Positions 50,505 through 63,209 of a stretch of 64,000 nucleotides of DNA are shown here, in pieces. The notes under the pieces were generated by a model. The model did not search any database, was not told the DNA's origin, and was given only the letters and a program-made list of their open reading frames with translations. Within the stretch, counting starts at the first letter, position 1. Each line of letters begins with the position of its first letter. A program made the position numbers and the translations under genes. Source of the DNA: Alphaproteobacteria bacterium (GTDB taxonomy: Bacteria > Pseudomonadota > Alphaproteobacteria > Caulobacterales > Parvularculaceae); NCBI GenBank assembly GCA_016125455.1, contig WGLS01000013.1:1-64000 (forward strand), written 5' to 3'.

Positions 50505-51308
50505 CTAATAGTAGGCGTTGGCCGCGGTTATGTCGGGCGCCTTGTTCAGGACGGTTCCGATGACATTAACGTCCTTCAGGAGCCGCCGGGCTTCGGTCAG
50601 GTCCCTGGCCCGGGTGTGGCCGCTTGCGGCAACGATCAGGGCGCAATCGACTTTCGGCAGAAATGCAATGGCGTCATCGCACCCTAGAATTGGCGAAATG
50701 TCGAAGATAACCGCCCGGGAGCCGTAATCTTCGACCGCGGTGCGGATCATCTCGTCAGCTTTCGCTGTTGTAAGATGTTCGGCCCCTCGGCGCGTGACGC
50801 GCTCGTTCGCAACCAGCAGCGTATTTGCCAGGTCGATCTTGACCGACACCTCCGGCAACGTGCGCGTTCCCTCGAAGTAATCAAGGCTCGAAGGAGGATC
50901 CTGGATGCCGAGATATCGGGCAACGCTCGGACGATAGAAGTCGAGGTCGATCAGCGTTGAACGCGAGCCTGCCTTCGATCCGATCGCGATCGCAAGATTG
51001 ATGGCCGTCACGGTTTTGCCCGCCCCTGACGTTGCAGAAACGACCGCGAGCGTTCGCCACCCATTACGTTCCATTGCCTGCAGGGTGCGGGTCCGCAGCA
51101 CGCGATAGGCGTTCAGCGCAGGATCCTGCTCATTGGCGATGATCCTGTGTCTGCCAATGGCGGAACGGTCGCAAGTAATTTCGCGGAATGCGGGAAGGCT
51201 TGTTGAACCGCTCGCCGGACGGGGCGAAGCGGCGCCAGCGTCCGTGCGCGGCGCCGGCGCCTCGCGGGATTCCTTCTTGCGACTGACGGCTTCCTGGATA
51301 CGGTCCAT
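50505..51308 (-). CDS. CpsD/CapB-type tyrosine autokinase, XrtA-associated
   Basis: The protein has 267 residues. The N-terminal 60 are Ser/Ala/Arg-rich. The BY-kinase ATPase core has the Walker A SATSGAGKTVTAINLA (about 93), Walker A' STLIDLDFYRPSVAR and Walker B SRAVIFDISP. The C-terminus has only two tyrosines, in NAYY, instead of the long Tyr cluster. It would switch exopolysaccharide synthesis with the Wzz-like protein upstream. It follows that gene by 56 bases on the same strand. The XrtA link is inferred from the neighbours. Confidence 0.88.
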   Translation of the reverse strand: MDRIQEAVSRKKESREAPAPRTDAGAASPRPASGSTSLPAFREITCDRSAIGRHRIIANEQDPALNAYRVLRTRTLQAMERNGWRTLAVVSATSGAGKTVTAINLAIAIGSKAGSRSTLIDLDFYRPSVARYLGIQDPPSSLDYFEGTRTLPEVSVKIDLANTLLVANERVTRRGAEHLTTAKADEMIRTAVEDYGSRAVIFDISPILGCDDAIAFLPKVDCALIVAASGHTRARDLTEARRLLKDVNVIGTVLNKAPDITAANAYY

Positions 51309-51364: not shown

Positions 51365-52990
51365 TCAGGCCGCGGCCGGACTGCGCTTGCCTTGGCTTGT
51401 CGGCACGAACGACGTCAAGAGAAAACGCCGTTCGCCTTCGGCCGGAATATAGGGGATGACGGCAATCGGCTGTTCGTCGGTTATCGTCGCAAGATGGGAC
51501 TTCCCGCGCAACGTGCCGCCGATGATTTCCGCTGCGCCAGCGCAGGCGCCTCCTGCGCCAAACGCCACAAAAACCGCGAGGATCGAGAGCTTCAACCGAT
51601 CGGGCGACGACGGCGTTTCCGGCGGCACGGCCGGTTCGAGGATCGAGAATTTCTCAGCCTTCTGGCCATCCTCGAGGTTTTCGGCCGTAATCGCCTGTTG
51701 CCGCTTGCCCTGGGTCAACTGGTATTGCTTTTCAAGGTTGGCCTGATCGCGCACCAAAACGCCCAGCCCGCGAGCCACGTCAGGCGTCCGTGCGATCTGG
51801 TCTTGCAGAGTTTCGATTTCGTCCTGCAGTTCGGCGATCTCGGCGATTGTCGATTCATAGCGACTGGCGATGATCTCAAGCCGGCTCTGCATTTGCGCAA
51901 CGACAAAATCACCCGATCCAGATGACGCCTCCTTGATCAACTGCTGGCCGAGCTCCTGCCGAAACCTGATAGCCTTCGTTCGCAATTCGGCGACAAGGTC
52001 GACGTCTTCCGCGGCTAGCGCCGCGGCAATCTTTGCGTCCTGTTCCTCAAGCGCCGCTCGCAGTTCCACAATCTTCGCGCTCGGTCCCGCCTGCCGTTCG
52101 AGTGCGGCGATCTGGGTCCTGATCGCGGCGACATCCGGGTGCGCTTCGGTCTTTTCGGCTCGAAGCGTCGCCAGTTGAGACTTCAGCTTGGCGAGTTCCT
52201 GCGCCGGGCCGGTCGGGCCAAGGTTTGAGCCAGAAATATAACTCGACAGCTGGGACTCAAGCGCGCGGCGCTCCTCGTCGAGCAGCGCCAATTGATCTTC
52301 CGCGTCGGAAAGCTCCTGGGTCTTTCGGTCAAGGGTGCGCGTGCGAAGATCGAGGTGTTCCGGCAGGGCGTCCGAATTCGCCTCGCGAAATGCCGAAATC
52401 CGGGTCTCGAGTTCGTCAACAGCCGCGCGCATGCGGCGCGCCTCCTGATCGAAAAACTCGGTCGTGTCGGAAGCGCCTTCTTTACGGGTCCTGACGTCTT
52501 CGGTCAGGAACAGCGTCATGAATTCGTTCGCGACGAGGTATGCCTTCTGCGGGGAACGATCCGAATAAAAGATTTCAAAAGCGATCGTCCCGTCCTGCTG
52601 CCTGTAGCGATTGCCTGGGTTGACCGAGATCAGGCGGACGCCGAGATGGGCGCGCATGTCGGCGACTTTTTCAGAGCCCGACATGTCTGGCCGGTCGTCA
52701 TAAAGCTTGTACTTTGCGGCGACGCTGAGCAGCCGTTCGCGGGTCATTACCCGTTGCCTGATCACCTGGATGCGCTCCTGCGCATACGAATTTATCGTCG
52801 AAGGCACAAACTCCTCAGGAATCTGCTGGGATTCGACCAGGATCGTTCCTTGCGCCATGTATTGCGGCGGCAGAAGCATGACCGCGATCAGGCCGATCGG
52901 TGTCAATACGATTACCGGGATGAGAAAGAACAGGATCCTGCGTCTGATGATGATCAGGATGTCTTCGAGCTGAAACTCGTCACTGTTCAT
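51365..52990 (-). CDS. Wzz/GumC-type exopolysaccharide chain-length protein
   Basis: The protein has 541 residues. MNSDEFQLEDILIIIRRRIL is followed by the first helix (about 19-40). A periplasmic coiled coil (about 170-420, including ELQDEIETLQDQIARTP) follows, and then the second helix (about 480-505: LKLSILAVFVAFGAGGACAG). The C-terminal cytoplasmic tail is short. It belongs to the polysaccharide co-polymerases that set chain length and dock with a BY-kinase. The ATG at 52990 has GGAGAG upstream; a start 30 bases earlier is less likely. The kinase gene follows on the same strand. Confidence 0.88.
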   Translation of the reverse strand: MNSDEFQLEDILIIIRRRILFFLIPVIVLTPIGLIAVMLLPPQYMAQGTILVESQQIPEEFVPSTINSYAQERIQVIRQRVMTRERLLSVAAKYKLYDDRPDMSGSEKVADMRAHLGVRLISVNPGNRYRQQDGTIAFEIFYSDRSPQKAYLVANEFMTLFLTEDVRTRKEGASDTTEFFDQEARRMRAAVDELETRISAFREANSDALPEHLDLRTRTLDRKTQELSDAEDQLALLDEERRALESQLSSYISGSNLGPTGPAQELAKLKSQLATLRAEKTEAHPDVAAIRTQIAALERQAGPSAKIVELRAALEEQDAKIAAALAAEDVDLVAELRTKAIRFRQELGQQLIKEASSGSGDFVVAQMQSRLEIIASRYESTIAEIAELQDEIETLQDQIARTPDVARGLGVLVRDQANLEKQYQLTQGKRQQAITAENLEDGQKAEKFSILEPAVPPETPSSPDRLKLSILAVFVAFGAGGACAGAAEIIGGTLRGKSHLATITDEQPIAVIPYIPAEGERRFLLTSFVPTSQGKRSPAAA

Positions 52991-53477
52991 TCTCGGCTCT
53001 CCGCCTTCCTTCATCGCCACGCCGGCTTTGCGGCCAACCTGTCGCCCGGCAGCCCGACCCGTCCCAGGGGAAGGGCCCGCGCCCTATTCGCCCGCGATGC
53101 GGCCTTCGTATGCGAGCATCGTACCATTCGGGCGAGGCGACGAACAATTGTTCTCGTTCAGCGGCCCGGACTCCCGACATCTATAACAGGAACGTGGCGA
53201 AATTACTGGCGGGATTGCCTTGCCCGTTGATTTCGGCGCGATTCTTCGAATCCGGGCCGCCATTATTCCGGGAGATGCAATTTCAAATCCTTCCTACGTC
53301 TTCAATTAAGGTTAATCTAGCGCGACGTTGATCGGGACAGCCTCGAGACGGCCGTTTGGCGCCGCCGTTTTCCGGCGCTGCCCGGCGACGCTCACGTCTG
53401 GCGCGAGTTTTGCTGCCGACAGGTCGCCGGGACCGGGAATTCAGCCCAGCCGGCAGCCAATGGGACGAGGGCATCAG
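52991..53477. other. Divergent promoter region of the exopolysaccharide locus
   Basis: This 487-base stretch separates the minus-strand wzz-kinase pair from the plus-strand genes. I see no convincing gene. The frame 53328-53477 continues upstream of the glycosyltransferase but lacks a proper start. Base composition is less GC-rich at 53270-53325 (TTCAATTAAGGTTAATCTAG), where promoters may lie. No sigma-54 -24/-12 pair with correct spacing was found, although such promoters drive some XrtA loci. Confidence 0.45.
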
Positions 53478-54749
53478 TTGACTAACGCATCCAGAGATGA
53501 ACTGGCGGCGCCTTCGGCGGGCGAGACGCGGGTCTTTGCCTTGGCGGACAATGGGGGTGGCGTCCGGAATGTTGCGGCGACCGCCAGCTTGTCCGACGAA
53601 TTCGATCGCGATGTCTGGAACTTGTTCGGGCTTCCGGTCGATGCCGTAAACCTTGCGGCCGCCGCATCCCAAGTCGAGGCCGCCGCGCGCGCTGGGCGGC
53701 GGCTGCGGATCGTCACGCCCAACGTCAACTTTCTTTGCATGGCGCGAGACGATGCCGTCGTACGTCGTGACGTCATCGACAACGAAATCTCGTTGGTGGA
53801 CGGCGCGCCGCTGCTCTTGCTGGCGCGACTCGCCGGCGCGCCATTCCCGGAGCGCGTTGCGGGCTCCGACCTGTTTGACGTCCTTCGCCGTCGGCCGGCC
53901 CCACGCGGCCGCAAGCTGCGCGTTTTCTTCTTTGGGGGCCTTGATGGCGCCGGTGCGCGCGCCTGCGCCGCGTTGAATGCGGATGTCGGCGGCGGCATGG
54001 AATGCGTCGGCAGTCTCGATCCCGGCGTCGGCGGCGCCGACGAGATGAGCGGAGACTCGCTCATCAACGCGATCAACGCCGCCCGACCCGATTTTGTCGT
54101 CGCGGCTCTCGGCGCAAGAAAAGGCCTCGCATGGATTGCCAGCGCCGCTGCGAGGCTTGATGCGCCCGTGATTTCGCACCTCGGCGCTGTCGTGAATTTT
54201 GTCGGCGGCGACGTTCGCCGCGCGCCTCGCTTCCTGCAGCGGCTCGGTCTTGAGTGGGCATGGCGGATCCTGCAGGAACCTGCGCTCTGGCGCCGATACT
54301 GGAGCGATGCGAAAACGCTCGCCGACATCATGATCCGACAGGCTCTGCCGCTTGCGCTAAATCCCGCCACGCCGACCGGCGCAGCGCCTGTAGCAGTTGT
54401 AAGTTCGGCTGGCGGCGAGCTTGAGATAGCCGTCGCCGGCGACCAGCTGGCAGGGAAACTCGAGGCGCTGCGCCGCGCGCTTCGGCAGGCGGTTTCAGTG
54501 AGCGCGCCGGTGACGGTCGACCTTTCGCGCATCGGCGCATTCGATGGCGCTTTCCTTGGCCAGCTCTTAATGCTTGAGAAAGCGCTGATGCCTCAAAATC
54601 GACGCTTCACGATGCGTGGACTGGATCGTGCGGCTCGACGACGGCTGAAATGGCACGGATTCGCATTTGCCGAGGGGCGGGCGGCGCCTCGCGGCGAGGC
54701 CGTGGACGGTACGGAGAGCGACATTGCGGGCGGCCGTCAAACCGCCTAG
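53478..54749 (+). CDS. WecB/TagA/CpsF glycosyltransferase fused to a STAS-like domain
   Basis: The protein has about 423 residues. The first domain (about 45-285) is a GT26-type glycosyltransferase: VTPNVNFLCMARDDAVVRR, NEISLVDGAPLLLLARLAG, PERVAGSDLFD and ISHLGAVVNFVGGDVRRAP. The C-terminal part (about 305-395) has the STAS fold pattern GELEIAVAGDQ, VTVDLSRIGAFDGAFLGQLL and RRRLKWHGF; the usual phosphorylated Ser is not there. It probably adds a sugar to a lipid-linked precursor at the membrane, and the STAS part may regulate it. The TTG at 53478 with GAGGG six bases upstream is the likely start; ATG at 53460 is the alternative. Confidence 0.83.
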   Translation: MTNASRDELAAPSAGETRVFALADNGGGVRNVAATASLSDEFDRDVWNLFGLPVDAVNLAAAASQVEAAARAGRRLRIVTPNVNFLCMARDDAVVRRDVIDNEISLVDGAPLLLLARLAGAPFPERVAGSDLFDVLRRRPAPRGRKLRVFFFGGLDGAGARACAALNADVGGGMECVGSLDPGVGGADEMSGDSLINAINAARPDFVVAALGARKGLAWIASAAARLDAPVISHLGAVVNFVGGDVRRAPRFLQRLGLEWAWRILQEPALWRRYWSDAKTLADIMIRQALPLALNPATPTGAAPVAVVSSAGGELEIAVAGDQLAGKLEALRRALRQAVSVSAPVTVDLSRIGAFDGAFLGQLLMLEKALMPQNRRFTMRGLDRAARRRLKWHGFAFAEGRAAPRGEAVDGTESDIAGGRQTA

Positions 54750-54797
54750 TCATGCTCGAAAGATCTAGTTGGAATGATCAGGGAACGGACTGCGCAA

Positions 54798-57263
54798 ATG
54801 ACAAAGAACGATGCAATTTTCGACGCGCGCCAGACGAGCGGCGCCGCCATCTCGGCGCGGAACGTCGCTTGCGGGAGCCGTCGCAAGCGGTTGTTGCCTC
54901 TTATTGCGGCCGTTGCCGTGGCGCCAATGATCTCCGCGTGCGCTTCGCCCGAACAGAAAATGCAACGTTACACCGAAAGCGGACAGGAATTCCTTGAAAA
55001 GGGAGATCTCGGAAAGGCGAATATCCAGTTCCGAAACGCCCTGAAGATCGACGAAGACCATGTGCCTGCGCTGTTGGGGCTCTACGAAATCGTCGAATCC
55101 AACAATCAGCCGCAACAGATGTTCGGTCTCCTGCAGCAAATCACGCGTCTCGATCCAACAAATGCCGAGGCCCTGACAGACCTTTCCAAGCTTTATCTGC
55201 TGTCCGGCGATGAAGCGACGTCGCTTGAAACGATTGATGCCGCACTTTCGTATAAGCCTGACGCTGCGGACACGATTGGCACGAAGGCCGCGATACTTTT
55301 CCGGATGGGCGACCGCGAGGAATCCATAGGGCTGGCCGAGCGGGCGCTTGAGCTGGATCCGACGATTCAGGAAGCTTCGACGGTCGTCGCGACGAATTAC
55401 ATCCTTGAGGAAAAACCCGACGAAGCAATCGCCGTGCTTGATCGAGCGCTGGAGGCGAATCCAAAGGCCGCTGTCCTTCATCTCCTCCGGGTACAAATCT
55501 ATGCGTCGCAGAACAGGTCGGAGGATATCACTGCGGCCTACGACGCGTTGATTCAGGAATTCCCTGACGAGCCCGCCTACCGGCGGCTTTATATCTCTCA
55601 GCTTGTTCGTGAAGAGAAGTTCGCTGAAGCTCGCGCCGAGCTGATGGAAGTCGTCAAGCTCCGGCCAAACGAAACCGAAGGCTATATCGACATTGCGCGT
55701 CTCGATCGACGCATTGACGGCGACGAGAAGGCGCGTGAAACGCTGAAGTCGTTCGCGGACGAAAACCCTGACAAGCCGGACCTTGCGTTCGCTTATGCGG
55801 CCTACCTGAGGGAATCCGGCGACGCCGACGCGGCGCGGGGCGTTTACCAACAGGTCATCGGCAACGCAAAGACTGACGAGCTTGCGCTTCGGGCGAAAAA
55901 TGAACTTGCCAACATGATGCTTCTTGACGGCGATCGAAGCGGCGCCGAGACGCTTATTGCTGAAATTCTAAATAGGGACGCGCGAAACTCCGGCGGCCTC
56001 ATCAAGACCGCAAGCATCAAGCTCATGGACGGCGATACGGACGGCGCTATCAACGATCTGCGCCTCGTTCTCGCCGACCAGCCCGACTCCGTCCAGGCTA
56101 AGCTGCTCATGGCGTCGGCCTACGAACGGCGCGGCGACAATGCATCCGCCGAACGTCAGTACCAGGAAGCGTTTGATTCAACTGAAGACAAGGCTTCGGT
56201 AGGCAACGGGTTCGCCCGTTTCCTTATCCGGCGTGGTGATACAAAGCGCGCGGAAGGAATTCTGAGCCGGGCTCTCGAAGTAAATCCGCGTAATGAGGAA
56301 AATCTCAAACTCCTCGCGGCGGTGCGTTTGCAACAACAGGACTGGCGCGGCGCGGAGGAAGTCGCCCGGATGATTGAATCCGTTAAACAGGACGATGCGA
56401 TCGTGGATCGCATCCTCGGCGCCGCCTATACGGGGCTGCAGGATTATGCCGGCGCCATTTCGGTGCTCGAGAAGATGAACGAAAACGAGCCTTTGGAGGT
56501 CAACTCTCTGGCGACCCTCGTTAACGCGTACGTCAATGCCGGCCGTTCCGAAGAGGCGGAGCGCCTTCTCAACACCAAGATTGAAAACGGCCAGGACGCT
56601 TATGAGGCGAACTTGCTGCTCGCAAACGTGCTCGCGTCGCAGAACCGCGCCGAAGAAGCCAAGTCAAAAATGCGCAGCGCCATCGACCTGGCGCCGGAGC
56701 GGCCGCAGGCATACGAACGCCTGTATCGCCTGTACATGGGTGAAGGGCGTCGCGAAGACGCGCGAACGGTTCTTGAGCAGGGGCTGGGCGAGGCGCCGAC
56801 CAATGATGGCCTGAAAGTGCTGCGCGCGGATATGCACATGTCGGCCGGCGAGTTTGAGGAAGCCGTGGCGATCTATGAAGACATTCTAACGCGTCGACCC
56901 GAGGACGTTCTTGTGCTGAATAACTACGCAGCGCTGGTGTCGGACATTCGGACCGACAAGGCGAGCCTCGATCGCGCGGTGGAGCTGTCGCGGCCGCTGC
57001 TCGAAACGGACAATGCGAACTTTCTTGATACGCATGGATGGGCGCTCGTGCGTGCGGGCCGACTTGCTGAGGGCATCGACGTGCTCGATCGCGCCGTCGG
57101 CCTGGCGCCAAAGTTCCCGGATGCGCTTTATCACCTCGGCGCCGCGCAGAAACAGGCGGGCGATTCCGTCGCGGCGGAACGGGCGTTGAAGCGCGCTATT
57201 GAAGCTGCGGGCTCAACGCGTCCCGATATCGTCGAGAAGGCGAAAAAGCTGTTGGACGAGTAA
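54798..57263 (+). CDS. PrsT-like TPR lipoprotein of the XrtA exopolysaccharide system
   Basis: The protein has about 821 residues. A lipoprotein signal ends at the lipobox MISAC (about residue 43). TPR repeats fill the rest (about 50-815), for example ANIQFRNALKIDEDHVPALL and EAISVLEK-like units throughout. XrtA-associated exopolysaccharide loci carry a TPR lipoprotein named PrsT of this size. It probably sits in the periplasm or outer membrane and scaffolds polysaccharide export. The ATG at 54798 is chosen, with AGGGAACGG ten bases upstream; ATG at 54774 is possible. It is between the glycosyltransferase and the ATPase on the same strand. Confidence 0.85.
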   Translation: MTKNDAIFDARQTSGAAISARNVACGSRRKRLLPLIAAVAVAPMISACASPEQKMQRYTESGQEFLEKGDLGKANIQFRNALKIDEDHVPALLGLYEIVESNNQPQQMFGLLQQITRLDPTNAEALTDLSKLYLLSGDEATSLETIDAALSYKPDAADTIGTKAAILFRMGDREESIGLAERALELDPTIQEASTVVATNYILEEKPDEAIAVLDRALEANPKAAVLHLLRVQIYASQNRSEDITAAYDALIQEFPDEPAYRRLYISQLVREEKFAEARAELMEVVKLRPNETEGYIDIARLDRRIDGDEKARETLKSFADENPDKPDLAFAYAAYLRESGDADAARGVYQQVIGNAKTDELALRAKNELANMMLLDGDRSGAETLIAEILNRDARNSGGLIKTASIKLMDGDTDGAINDLRLVLADQPDSVQAKLLMASAYERRGDNASAERQYQEAFDSTEDKASVGNGFARFLIRRGDTKRAEGILSRALEVNPRNEENLKLLAAVRLQQQDWRGAEEVARMIESVKQDDAIVDRILGAAYTGLQDYAGAISVLEKMNENEPLEVNSLATLVNAYVNAGRSEEAERLLNTKIENGQDAYEANLLLANVLASQNRAEEAKSKMRSAIDLAPERPQAYERLYRLYMGEGRREDARTVLEQGLGEAPTNDGLKVLRADMHMSAGEFEEAVAIYEDILTRRPEDVLVLNNYAALVSDIRTDKASLDRAVELSRPLLETDNANFLDTHGWALVRAGRLAEGIDVLDRAVGLAPKFPDALYHLGAAQKQAGDSVAAERALKRAIEAAGSTRPDIVEKAKKLLDE

Positions 57264-57352: not shown

Positions 57353-59566
57353 ATGTACGAAGAATTCTACGGCCTCAAAGAGAAGCCATTCTCGATTCAG
57401 CCGGACCCGTCCTTTCTCTACTGGGGACGGACGCACCGGCTTGCCTATGCCATGCTCGAGTATGGCGTCATAAATCAGGCTGGGATTTCTATCGTCACCG
57501 GTGAGGTTGGTTGCGGCAAGACGACCCTTATTCACCGGTTGCTCGAGCAATTGTCCGACACCCACTCGGTCGCGCTCCTGTCGAACATCCAGCGTGATCG
57601 AGGCGATCTTCTGAGCTGGGTTTTGATGGGCTTTGGCCAGCCATTCGCCGGCATGGACCATGTCGAGAGGTTTGCGGCGCTCCAGCGATTCTTTATCGCG
57701 GAGTACGGAAAGGGGCGGCGCGTTGTCCTCATCATCGATGAAGCGCAGAATCTGTCGATCGACATGCTTGAGGAAATCCGCATGTTGTCGAACATTAACG
57801 CCGGCAAGCATCAGCTTCTGCAGCTGATACTCATTGGCCAGCCGCAATTGAAGCAATTGCTGAACCGGCCGGACATGCTGCAGCTCGCGCAGCGCGTCGG
57901 CGCGGACTTTCACCTAAGCCCGCTCAATCGAGACGAAGTTCACGCCTATGTTGATACGCGTCTCGCGATCGCCGGCGCAAAGCGGGCGATCTTCACTGCT
58001 GCGGCAATTGATCAGATTGCAGCTGAATCGAAGGGCGTGCCGCGCGTCATCAACATTATCGCCGACACTGCGCTCGTCTATGGATTCTCTGCGGGCGACG
58101 CCATGGTCGACAGAGACAGTATTGTTTCGGTGATTGCCGACAAAGGCAATTATGGCGTCTTCGGCATAGCGAGCGATGACGATCTTCAGTTGTCTGAGGC
58201 GCCTGATGCAGGGCCAACCTCGTTCATCAAGACGCCTGCCAGCAGCGGCGCGCGATTGAACGTCGCCGAGAGCGGCGGCGAGGCGATCAAGGCTGCCGCG
58301 CCCGGCGGTTTTGGCGATGTGGGTTCGTCGGGCGTCGCGCCGACCGGCGGGCCGACGACATTGTTTCCCGACCTGGAGCAGCCCGCAACCGGCGCGGCAA
58401 GCGCCGTGACGGCCGAACCGCGGCGCGAACCTGAAGATGGCGTTGCTGCTTTCCGTGCGGTGCGTCCGGCGGTTGGCCAATCGCCCCAGAGCGGCGCCTT
58501 TCCGCGCTGGGAGCGCGCCATTGCCGAGCCTGCCGTTGAAAGCGGCAAGCGCGACGACGCCGCCGCAGCCGGCCCAATCGGCGTGATCCTCTATGGCTAC
58601 AGCCAGAGCAGCGAGACGCCGGGGACGTTCGGCGCCAATGTGACTCAGGTCATCCTTGTACGTAGCGCACGACCCGGCGCGGTTTTCGATCCCCCCGATG
58701 GCGTCGACATTGTCGACCTTGGCGGCGATGACGCAAGCCCCGGCCGCGCGCGCAACGCTGGCTACCGTCGAATGAAGAAACTTGCGCCAAATGTCCGATT
58801 TGTTCAGTTCCTTGGCCCTCAGGCGCGGCTTGATCCGAAATGGCTGGAAGCGGCCACGGCATTCATGGCGCGCCGCCCGGAAGTCGCGGCGATATCCGGC
58901 GTTGAGGCGCTCGCCGAGGGCGAACGGAGGCTGTTTCAGAAGCTCAGGTCCATTCGATTGCGCAAAGAGCCTGGCGAAGCAATTTTCACGAGCGAGAACT
59001 TCTTCGTGCGGGCCGCTGCGTTCGAAACGGCCGGAGGATTTCGCGGCGATATTCCTGGCGCTGAAACGGCAGACCTTTGCGTGCGCCTACGCCGTCGCGG
59101 CGCTCATATCTGGCGTGTCGAGGATACGATGACGCTGATCGCGCCGGCGGTAAAAGGCGCAGGCGGATGGTTTGCGGCGTGCGCCAGGGACGGAAAGTCG
59201 TTCGCCCTCAGGGCCGCATTGCATGGCGCGCCGCCGGAGCGATTGTGCGCTCTTGAAAGATCACGCGCCATTTTCTGGGGCGCCGTGATTCCGACTTTGA
59301 TGGTTGGTTCGGCATCGCTTTTCGGCGCCGTCGCCTATGTCGCGGATCGCGGTCTTGACTATCGGGTCGCGATAGCGGCGCCAATTGGCGCTGGCATGCT
59401 TGCTTATCTGGTGAAAATCGTCGCAAGCGCATTCAAGCACGGCCCATTCCGCCCGAGCTCGTGGGCATACGGCGTATTTTCGACCATCGGCCACTTTGCG
59501 GAATTCATCGGTATACTGCAGGCGGGCGGCATTGTGAAGGAAGTCAGCCAGTCCCGTCGTCGATAA
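57353..59566 (+). CDS. XrtA-associated ExeA-like ATPase fused to a degenerate GT2-like membrane domain
   Basis: The protein has 737 residues. Residues 1-290 form an ExeA/GspA-type AAA ATPase: MYEEFYGLKEKPFSIQPDP at the start, Walker A GEVGCGKTT (50-58), Walker B VVLIIDEAQN (124-133) and SKGVPRVINII. An Ala/Gly/Pro-rich linker (275-405) follows. Residues 405-620 resemble a GT2-type glycosyltransferase: RARNAGYRRM, then FVQFLGPQARLDPKWLEAA, where active members have a DxD, here absent. Two or three membrane helices (about 638-662, 672-690 and 705-725) end the protein. XrtA loci usually code for the ATPase alone, so the fusion is unusual. The substrate of either part is unknown. Confidence 0.83.
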   Translation: MYEEFYGLKEKPFSIQPDPSFLYWGRTHRLAYAMLEYGVINQAGISIVTGEVGCGKTTLIHRLLEQLSDTHSVALLSNIQRDRGDLLSWVLMGFGQPFAGMDHVERFAALQRFFIAEYGKGRRVVLIIDEAQNLSIDMLEEIRMLSNINAGKHQLLQLILIGQPQLKQLLNRPDMLQLAQRVGADFHLSPLNRDEVHAYVDTRLAIAGAKRAIFTAAAIDQIAAESKGVPRVINIIADTALVYGFSAGDAMVDRDSIVSVIADKGNYGVFGIASDDDLQLSEAPDAGPTSFIKTPASSGARLNVAESGGEAIKAAAPGGFGDVGSSGVAPTGGPTTLFPDLEQPATGAASAVTAEPRREPEDGVAAFRAVRPAVGQSPQSGAFPRWERAIAEPAVESGKRDDAAAAGPIGVILYGYSQSSETPGTFGANVTQVILVRSARPGAVFDPPDGVDIVDLGGDDASPGRARNAGYRRMKKLAPNVRFVQFLGPQARLDPKWLEAATAFMARRPEVAAISGVEALAEGERRLFQKLRSIRLRKEPGEAIFTSENFFVRAAAFETAGGFRGDIPGAETADLCVRLRRRGAHIWRVEDTMTLIAPAVKGAGGWFAACARDGKSFALRAALHGAPPERLCALERSRAIFWGAVIPTLMVGSASLFGAVAYVADRGLDYRVAIAAPIGAGMLAYLVKIVASAFKHGPFRPSSWAYGVFSTIGHFAEFIGILQAGGIVKEVSQSRRR

Positions 59567-61405: not shown

Positions 61406-61580
61406 GCGCCGGAAATAGACTGGGGCGAGGATCGAAGAAAGGCCATCGGCTCTTCGCGCCAATCGCGCGCGGTGCCGGCGCTGCGCGTCATTGGGGCGAA
61501 GCTGCCTTGTCGCTCGCCGCAACCGGCAGGGATTTTGCGAGGCGAGGTCCGAGTCGTTTCAGATCGGACAGGCTGGCGCC

Positions 61581-63209
61581 ATGACAGCGGAAATTCTCAC
61601 ATCTGACGAAGAATGCGCCTCCTGGAGGCGTCCGGCCCCTCGCGCGCGCCGCGCGGTCATGGCGTTGTACAGCTGGAAGGACCCGGGCTGGGTCTTTCTT
61701 GTTGCAGTTCTGGCGGCGACGCCGTTCATCTGCGCGTCAGCGATGGCGCCGGCGTTACTCAGTTTTGCGCCGACCGTGGAACCGGTCGGGCAGGTAGCCG
61801 ACGCGAGGGCATTTGCCGCCGGCGCTAGCAGCATCGGCGACGAGGCCGCGCCGTTTCAGCTCATGCTGTTGACACTGGCAGACCGTTTTGCCGATGCGCC
61901 TGGCCGCATCCAGCTCATAGCCAAGGCGATTGCGGCCGTCCTCGCTGCGTATCCTCTCGCATACTTCGCGTCAGTAAGATTGCCGACAGTGCTTGCGGTG
62001 GCGATGACCGCGGCGATCGCGTCGTTCATAGTCGCGCCATTTTCCGGGCCAAGCGATCTGGCGCTGGCGCTGTTTCTTGTCGCCTCGACCGCGCTTGCCT
62101 TGTCTCCTGCCGACGAAGGATGGGATCGCGCGATATTTGAAGGCTTGCTCGTCGGCGGCATCATGTTCGCTCTATGGCTACTTAATCCGGTGTTCACGCT
62201 GGCGGGCTTCGCCGTTCTGTCCGCGTGTCCGTTCCTCACCGGCCTTGCTGGATTTTCGCGTTACGCGACAGCCTTTGGCACGTTCGTCGTCTTCGCGATT
62301 GTGGCTGAAATTGCCGTGCCCGGCCTGAACGGGGCAAGGGCGGAAATCGCCTCGGCGATGGTTGCAGAAGGGCTTGTGAATACCGCGAGAATGGTCGGTG
62401 CATGGGGGCTCGCCGGCGTCGCCGCGTCCAGCCTCGTGGTGATTGGCGCAACCGCTGTTTTCGGTGGGCGGGAACACGCGCGCGGTTGGGCCGCCGGCGC
62501 CGGATTTCTGGCCATCGCCGCGCTAGCTTCCGCCCTCTCGGGCGCTCAGCCTGCGCTGGCGTTCGCTTTCGCCGGGGCGATGGCGGTCTTTTCGATCCAT
62601 TCGCCTTTTTACGATGGCATATTTCGCGATCACGACCGAGGATCGATTGCGGCCGCTGGCGCCGTCGGGGCGCTGGTCCTGTTCTGGTTTGCGTTGACGG
62701 GCGTCGACGGCGCGTCCCAGTTGAAGTCTCAGTGGCAGGCCGGCGCGCGCCAGGAATCCGGCGCCGCCGCTGCGCTCGCTATCGCTTATCCGACTGTCAA
62801 CCAGCAGGCATCTTGGGCGCGGGCCATAAGCGGCTTTCGCGGCGGTCAATCCTTGGTCGGGAACGCGCCGATGGATCAGTCGGAAATGATGTTCGAGGCG
62901 GCGACCCGCGCCAAGGCGATTTCGAAAGCCGGCGCTCCGATTGCGTTCCTTACGGGCGACGACACCGCTTGCGTCTTCGCCGGCGGTCGGCGCTGCCGGT
63001 CAGATGCCCGCGCGGCGGCGGCCGACGCAAGCGTCGTGTTCGTGCCGCGACTTGATCTGTCTGAGGCGACGCGCAAGCAGAAGGATCACGCTGAAGCGTT
63101 TCTGTACACGGAATTCAAGCTGGCGGAGCGAACGCAGTTTTGGGAGCTGTGGGTGCGTCGCGGCGCGCTCATTCCGGACGCAGCGATCGAATTCGGGCAA
63201 GGCCTTTAG
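61581..63209 (+). CDS. Large polytopic membrane protein of unknown function
   Basis: The protein has 542 residues. About ten hydrophobic helices span residues 35-390 (for example VFLVAVLAATPFICASAMAP and LAVAMTAAIASFIVAPF). The final 150 residues form a soluble domain with IAYPTVNQQASWARAISGF, SEMMFEAATRAKAISKAG, GDDTACVFAGGRRC and FKLAERTQFWELWVRRGAL. The layout, many helices then a periplasmic domain, recalls GT-C glycosyltransferases, but no motif proves it. Its neighbours point to envelope sugar chemistry only loosely. Its stop overlaps the end of the cysQ gene by four bases. Confidence 0.7.
   Translation: MTAEILTSDEECASWRRPAPRARRAVMALYSWKDPGWVFLVAVLAATPFICASAMAPALLSFAPTVEPVGQVADARAFAAGASSIGDEAAPFQLMLLTLADRFADAPGRIQLIAKAIAAVLAAYPLAYFASVRLPTVLAVAMTAAIASFIVAPFSGPSDLALALFLVASTALALSPADEGWDRAIFEGLLVGGIMFALWLLNPVFTLAGFAVLSACPFLTGLAGFSRYATAFGTFVVFAIVAEIAVPGLNGARAEIASAMVAEGLVNTARMVGAWGLAGVAASSLVVIGATAVFGGREHARGWAAGAGFLAIAALASALSGAQPALAFAFAGAMAVFSIHSPFYDGIFRDHDRGSIAAAGAVGALVLFWFALTGVDGASQLKSQWQAGARQESGAAAALAIAYPTVNQQASWARAISGFRGGQSLVGNAPMDQSEMMFEAATRAKAISKAGAPIAFLTGDDTACVFAGGRRCRSDARAAAADASVVFVPRLDLSEATRKQKDHAEAFLYTEFKLAERTQFWELWVRRGALIPDAAIEFGQGL

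Follow-up and report, generated by a model that had tools for sequence, protein, structure and literature searches.

The question raised by this locus is why the ATPase of an exopolysaccharide locus should be joined, in one protein, to a membrane-bound glycosyltransferase-like domain, and whether that domain is still an enzyme. The gene lies on the forward strand at positions 57353-59566 of a 64,000-nucleotide stretch of Parvularculaceae DNA (contig WGLS01000013.1, assembly GCA_016125455.1), which as a whole is referred to here as the window. It has long been noted that exosortase loci adjoin exopolysaccharide genes (PMC1569441), and an earlier note on this DNA had described the product as an XrtA-type ATPase fused to a degenerate GT2-like, membrane-anchored domain. 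The analysis presented here leaves little doubt that the protein is a pseudo-glycosyltransferase joined to an ATPase of the XrtD type. A search of largely open-access literature on XrtD, TIGR03015 and inactive-glycosyltransferase fusions yielded no description of the fusion protein.

Architecture of the fusion protein

The gene is a single open frame of 737 residues with zero internal stops, in which an intact AAA ATPase, a disordered linker and a GT2-like membrane part follow one another, as the earlier note had read them. The ATPase domain (AAA_22, TIGR03015-like) occupies residues 1-264 (57353-58144, forward strand, as for all parts of the gene) and is 75-86% identical within the family; it carries a Walker A motif, GEVGCGKTT, at residues 50-58 (57500-57526) and a Walker B motif, VVLIIDEAQ, at residues 124-132 (57722-57748). 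It is followed by a variable linker, residues 272-406 (58166-58570), which ranges from 91 to 150 residues in the family, contains 81% disorder-promoting residues and is modelled with a pLDDT of about 28 (residues 280-405). The remainder comprises a pseudo-GT2 domain with a predicted GT-A fold at residues 407-600 (58571-59152), a less hydrophobic and probably interfacial helix at residues 603-624 (59159-59224) with the conserved H624 at its end, two transmembrane helices at about residues 633-664 (59249-59344) and 670-696 (59360-59440), and an additional less hydrophobic helix at residues 701-723, placed by the model of residues 401-737. Both transmembrane helices are present in all 28 sequences measured (maximal 19-residue hydropathy above 1.6); two or three had been proposed, and two stand while the third does not, the other two helices being less hydrophobic. 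In the full-length model the ATPase is of low confidence, its alignment being shallow and near-invariant, and the arrangement of the domains is not trustworthy.

The profile check proposed for the C-terminal part gave a match to Pfam Glyco_trans_2_3 with an E-value of 4e-5, under the curated cut-off for the window protein, and 13 of the 15 family members scanned matched at E<=0.01, the best with 8e-12. A scan of genome contigs with this part as a single sequence gave no matches; an alignment-based scan did find relatives. The closest comparison within the same genome is a free GT2 paralogue of 335 aa, 31% identical to residues 449-722 of the fusion (E 6e-27). Against the MftF model TIGR03965, for which at least 280 bits are expected, the fusion protein scores 25.3 bits. 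Profile searches against solved structures returned weak matches (6p61, 3.5e-6; GmaR, 3e-4), and the comparison of folds was far clearer: an AlphaFold model of residues 401-737, built from 47 sequences, reached a pLDDT of 91 and a pTM of 0.88, and it aligned (Foldseek, VIA-align 2) with hyaluronan synthase (Z 22.9, 299 residues, rmsd 3.4), PcManGT (Z 21.1, 275 residues, rmsd 3.2) and BcsA (Z 20.3, 300 residues, rmsd 3.9). Profiles and predicted structure both place the C-terminal half among the GT2 homologues with a GT-A fold, in line with the degenerate domain first proposed. The fused domain probably stems from the free MftF/EpsD-like membrane GT2 of the exopolysaccharide locus, which is homologous to it over about 270 residues, including the transmembrane part, and differs in having a complete active site and in not being joined to an ATPase. 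A free pseudo-glycosyltransferase ancestor was not found among the free GT2s of other alphaproteobacterial families (L108, L115-L117), which likewise carry the active-site motifs.

The ATPase and its exosortase

The N-terminal half scores 92.6 bits with the AAA_22 profile (PF13401; cut-off 27), both Walker motifs are intact, and the Walker core residues are invariant in 26 sequences of the fused family; a search by sequence gave no close solved relative. Its best NCBIfam match is TIGR03015, the family of the XrtA ATPase, with 274.3 bits against a cut-off of 324.5 (283.2 bits for the L055 copy); the genome's own XrtA-type ATPase likewise falls under this cut-off (319.4 bits). The XrtA ATPases share with the window protein the AAA_22 fold family and the type of neighbourhood, but they are tied to another exosortase, and in a tree the five XrtA-type ATPases are set apart as a clade of their own (100/100), whereas the fused copies group with ATPases from XrtD loci. 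When the XrtA-type ATPases are taken as outgroup, the nearest neighbour of the fused clade is family f46, with weak support (84/56).

The presence of the ATPase type follows that of XrtD. XrtD (TIGR04152) was over its cut-off in 40 of the 44 genomes of the family that have this type of ATPase, i.e., 32/35 with the fusion and 8/9 with a free orthologue, and in 0/18 with neither, counts that are not a significance test because related genomes are non-independent. The four genomes with the ATPase and without an over-cut-off XrtD are G035, where XrtD is split into two adjacent pieces, and G074, G010 and G084, with a completeness of 84%, 78% and 89%, respectively. The XrtD of the window genome is on contig C20 (486 bits, cut-off 400), and an XrtA-like exosortase (187 bits) is on contig C33; in the window itself, neither XrtD nor a VPLPA-type substrate is found near the ATPase. 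In Marinicaulis, where XrtD and the fusion are 5-7 kb apart, TIGR04152 (cut-off 400) gives 502 bits for the neighbouring exosortase (L075). Proteins with a VPxPxA tail, as expected of XrtD substrates, occur in relatives (L055, L056, L060, L076 and L077), and in several relatives their genes lie a short way upstream of WecG. The free ATPase of Rhodobacter sp. CZR27 (WP_096788000.1), 53% identical in the ATPase domain, adjoins an NCBI-annotated XrtD, a TPR protein, chain-length determinant and tyrosine kinase genes, and two VPLPA-CTERM proteins; it differs in having 294 aa and neither linker, GT domain nor membrane helices. On phylogenetic placement and co-occurrence, the ATPase is assigned to the XrtD (VPLPA-CTERM) exosortase system and not, as the earlier note had it, to that of XrtA.

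Free ATPases of 300-400 residues had been given as the usual form, and this is the norm elsewhere; it does not describe the XrtA-type ATPase of this genome (L050:3411-5780, reverse strand, contig C23), an open frame of 790 aa with an extension of roughly 400 residues that is low-complexity and coiled-coil-like. Elsewhere in the family, the open frames of XrtA-type ATPases span about 440-816 aa.

Distribution and origin of the fusion

The fused type was found in 35 of the 62 genomes searched from the Parvularculaceae, a family of marine bacteria, and in 31 of those the frame runs uninterrupted through both halves, with 695-809 aa and neither stop nor frameshift between them; most genomes compared are metagenome assemblies. 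Chance is excluded, because both halves share one frame in 31 genomes. The earlier note had named a GT-A match lacking DxD, together with the fusion in relatives, as what would support its description, and both are seen. The remaining four copies (G027, G031, G064 and G079) are truncated or at a contig end in draft genomes, and the carriers include the isolates Marinicaulis flavus SY-3-19 and Amphiplicatus metriothermophilus. The fusion was not seen in 384 further alphaproteobacterial genomes sampled, in each of which the two best candidates were scored; the best matches there are ATPases that stand alone, with a length of about 300-360 aa. A candidate second fusion in the gammaproteobacterial Candidatus Endobugula sertula (L082) was rejected, since the GT2 there is free and retains every active-site motif.

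The fused clade has one origin: a branch with 100/100 support splits the 31 fused GT domains from 20 free homologues, and in the ATPase tree the fused copies form a single clade (100/99). A downstream pseudo-glycosyltransferase gene was sought in the unfused loci of genera g3 and g8, and none was found; unrelated genes follow the ATPase, with the exception of G085, which has GT4 and EpsU-like GT2 genes in that place. The fusion is most simply taken as the derived state, its loss in g3 and g8 being formally possible as an alternative.

Loss of the active site and retention of the domain

To describe the state of the active site, 12 diagnostic positions were used, defined by their invariance in 20 free homologues and located in the motifs RNEG, VDSGSxD, DxD, EE/ED and HDA. 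All 12 are kept in each of the 20 free homologues tabulated, whereas the 31 fused copies keep between 0 and 4. The arginine and glutamate of RNEG, which bind the nucleotide, the aspartate of VDSGS and the histidine of HDA are gone in 31/31 fused copies, and the acidic base is lost in 30/31. In the window protein the RNEG place reads YSQS (residues 416-419; 58598-58609) and T572 stands at the position of the acidic base. The DxD place reads GPQ (residues 488-490; 58814-58822) within the stretch FLGPQARLD (486-494), for which the free paralogue has FIDGDCEVV. Thus the loss of DxD, on which the earlier note had laid weight, is real in the window protein but is not the key feature; it is the least consistent of the losses, because 7 of the 31 fused copies still spell a literal DxD. 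Common to the fused and free groups are RARN, the DLC-R region and H624; the first glutamate of EE/ED is retained in 26/31 fused copies, and the motif GRARNAGYRRMKK (residues 464-476; 58742-58780) is kept and extended. Judged by these motifs, the fused domain has lost the donor site, the catalytic base and the conserved histidine, and it would fall outside the GT2 enzymes as defined by nucleotide-sugar binding, DxD and base.

Selection has acted on the domain all the same. In the closest genome pairs, dN/dS (Nei-Gojobori) was 0.06-0.15 for the pseudo-glycosyltransferase, 0.01-0.035 for the ATPase and 0.16-0.27 for the linker. Moreover, 23 positions are conserved solely in the fused clade, among them Y471, R472, K475, RRPEV (507-511), R564-G565-D566, R581, R582 and W587; many fall in the latter half of the domain, which in GT2 proteins is normally the acceptor side, and the newly invariant GGFRGD (561-566) and DLCVRLRRRG (574-583) are found there (59033-59101). 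Mean identity to the window protein is 0.39 in the GT-A part and 0.30 in the transmembrane part, the least conserved of the folded parts, and mean entropy in the fused domain is 1.60 for the acceptor half versus 1.85 for the donor half, a modest difference. Purifying selection and the 23 newly conserved positions therefore indicate a maintained pseudo-glycosyltransferase and no relic.

Genomic neighbourhood

Directly upstream of the fusion lies the gene of a PrsT-type TPR protein (54774-57263, forward strand; TIGR02917, 377 bits over cut-off), an arrangement that recurs in relatives whether or not they have the fusion. The same operon includes a WecG/TagA glycosyltransferase fused to a STAS_2 domain (53328-54749, forward strand), and the reverse strand carries a polysaccharide chain-length determinant (51365-53020, TIGR03007-like, below cut-off) and a tyrosine autokinase (50505-51308, TIGR03018-like, below cut-off). 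The order WecG-STAS, PrsT, ATPase is common to the fused loci and, wherever WecG was detected, to the g3 and g8 loci with a free ATPase (L092-L095, L097). Downstream of the fusion, most relatives have glycosyltransferase genes (GT4 EpsE-like, GT2 EpsU-like and the free active GT2, the latter about 2-3 kb away in many), and beyond these a 2OG-Fe(II) oxygenase and/or a large G8/Ig-domain protein is found in many relatives, with QueG last. In the genus of the window (G000, G002), QueG comes directly after the fusion, and the free GT2 and XrtD are on other contigs; the neighbourhood is dispersed in this genus, and thus the fusion has outlived it.

Several other features of these loci deserve mention. 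The WecG/TagA/CpsF protein, with its C-terminal STAS_2 at residues 368-440, is a second unusual fusion of the operon, and its cluster is present in 27 of the loci compared. At 61491-63206 (forward strand) an open frame encodes a hydrophobic protein of 572 aa that has no Pfam or NCBIfam match and is conserved in 14 loci. In Amphiplicatus metriothermophilus (L078:11967-14225), a frame of 753 aa joins the EpsU-like GT2 and the free MftF-like GT2, which may be a two-enzyme fusion or an overlapping gene pair. A conserved protein of ~1050-1100 aa (L055:15399-18668 and its equivalents), with G8, CEMIP beta-helix-like and Ig/cadherin domains, adjoins the glycosyltransferase genes and possibly acts at the surface or on a polysaccharide. 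Finally, two free GT2s of g3, where the ATPase is unfused (L124, L127), deviate at VDSGSxD and DxDC but are unchanged in RNEG, HDA and the motif of the acidic base.

Proposed function

We favour, with a probability of roughly 0.55, the reading that the fusion is a fixed, derived variant of the XrtD exosortase/exopolysaccharide ATPase in which the dead glycosyltransferase would serve as a module that docks onto the exopolysaccharide machinery; for the docking or coupling mechanism itself the odds appear about even. With two transmembrane helices both protein ends would be cytoplasmic, placing the ATPase and the pseudo-glycosyltransferase on the same cytoplasmic face. The dead domain would tether the ATPase at this face of the inner membrane, where it may recognise either the lipid-linked glycan that served as the ancestral acceptor or the pathway's active GT2 paralogue. 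The state of exopolysaccharide assembly could then decide where ATP is hydrolysed, or gate the hydrolysis. The docking reading is consistent with the GT-A fold and two transmembrane helices (Z 20-23 to hyaluronan synthase, BcsA and PcManGT), with the loss of catalysis under continued selection and the appearance of new conserved positions, with the co-occurrence of XrtD and this ATPase type, and with the active GT2 near the fusion in many relatives. A precedent for a related design is ExeA, a cytoplasmic AAA ATPase with one transmembrane segment and a peptidoglycan-binding domain that is required for secretin assembly (PMC4098917). On the other hand, the module is inessential to the mechanism, since other Alphaproteobacteria and genera g3 and g8 use a free ATPase; the average conservation of the acceptor half does not stand out strikingly from that of the remaining fused domain; and in the lineage of the window neither XrtD nor the neighbouring glycosyltransferase genes have stayed in place, having been relocated or lost. 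Given the new invariant residues in the second half and the modest difference in conservation, binding on the acceptor side is a lead and no proof. The suggestions of the earlier note, that the added domain could bring the ATPase to the membrane or sense a lipid-linked sugar, would agree in spirit with this reading.

A more specific and tentative proposal is that the dead domain is a sensor of lipid-linked glycan, in which the acceptor at the membrane would switch the state of the ATPase and so time exopolysaccharide export or the XrtD-dependent attachment of VPLPA-CTERM proteins; if true, this would be a direct physical link of polysaccharide assembly to exosortase sorting. It seems unlikely that the domain is a plain membrane anchor, with the transmembrane helices alone of importance and the GT-A part a passive folding spacer. 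The two helices are indeed kept in every sequence measured despite the lowest conservation among the folded parts, but the GT-A part is conserved above them, and an anchor needs no new invariant residues such as R472, K475, R564, D566 and R582. Rather less probable is a regulatory pseudo-subunit, i.e., that the dead domain pairs with the active GT2 paralogue and the ATPase acts as a switch of its activity; the free active GT2 of the family is almost confined to genomes with XrtD and this ATPase type and is often encoded 2-3 kb downstream of the fusion, yet in g3 and g8 the ATPase is free, g3 possesses active-type GT2 genes, and neither genus has a pseudo-glycosyltransferase. Metal-independent GT-A enzymes exist, and the retention of RARN, of the first glutamate of EE/ED in most fused copies and of DxD in a few would suit an active, highly divergent glycosyltransferase working without DxD; this is very improbable, given that the residues for donor binding and catalysis were lost together (31/31; base 30/31). 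A decaying relic or an assembly or gene-calling artefact, to which the active-site loss and the four truncated or contig-end copies in drafts might point, is already contradicted by 31 intact frames from independent assemblies, including two isolates, and by purifying selection, and can be set aside.

Comparison with known systems and significance

Among characterised proteins, hyaluronan synthase, BcsA and PcManGT resemble the fused part in having a GT-A domain followed by interfacial and transmembrane helices; they differ in being active and larger, in having more transmembrane helices, and in an identity of 10-15% to the fused domain. ExeA/GspA of type II secretion is likewise a cytoplasmic AAA ATPase attached to both the inner membrane and a carbohydrate polymer (PMC4098917), although it is held there by a single transmembrane segment and a periplasmic peptidoglycan-binding domain, where the fusion has a cytoplasmic pseudo-glycosyltransferase. 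In GmaR of Listeria, a GT2-type domain is likewise part of a multi-domain regulatory protein, but there it is catalytically active, and the protein is a soluble antirepressor with no ATPase (PMC9638930).

Having arisen once and being under selection that can be measured, the fused domain is a clear example of a pseudo-glycosyltransferase in bacteria. It can also be regarded as a natural separation-of-function construct, for which cultured hosts exist. That the ATPase has been joined to a glycosyltransferase scaffold with its catalysis gone and its binding surface remade suggests that it works at the cytoplasmic stage of polysaccharide synthesis, in which the glycan is linked to a lipid.
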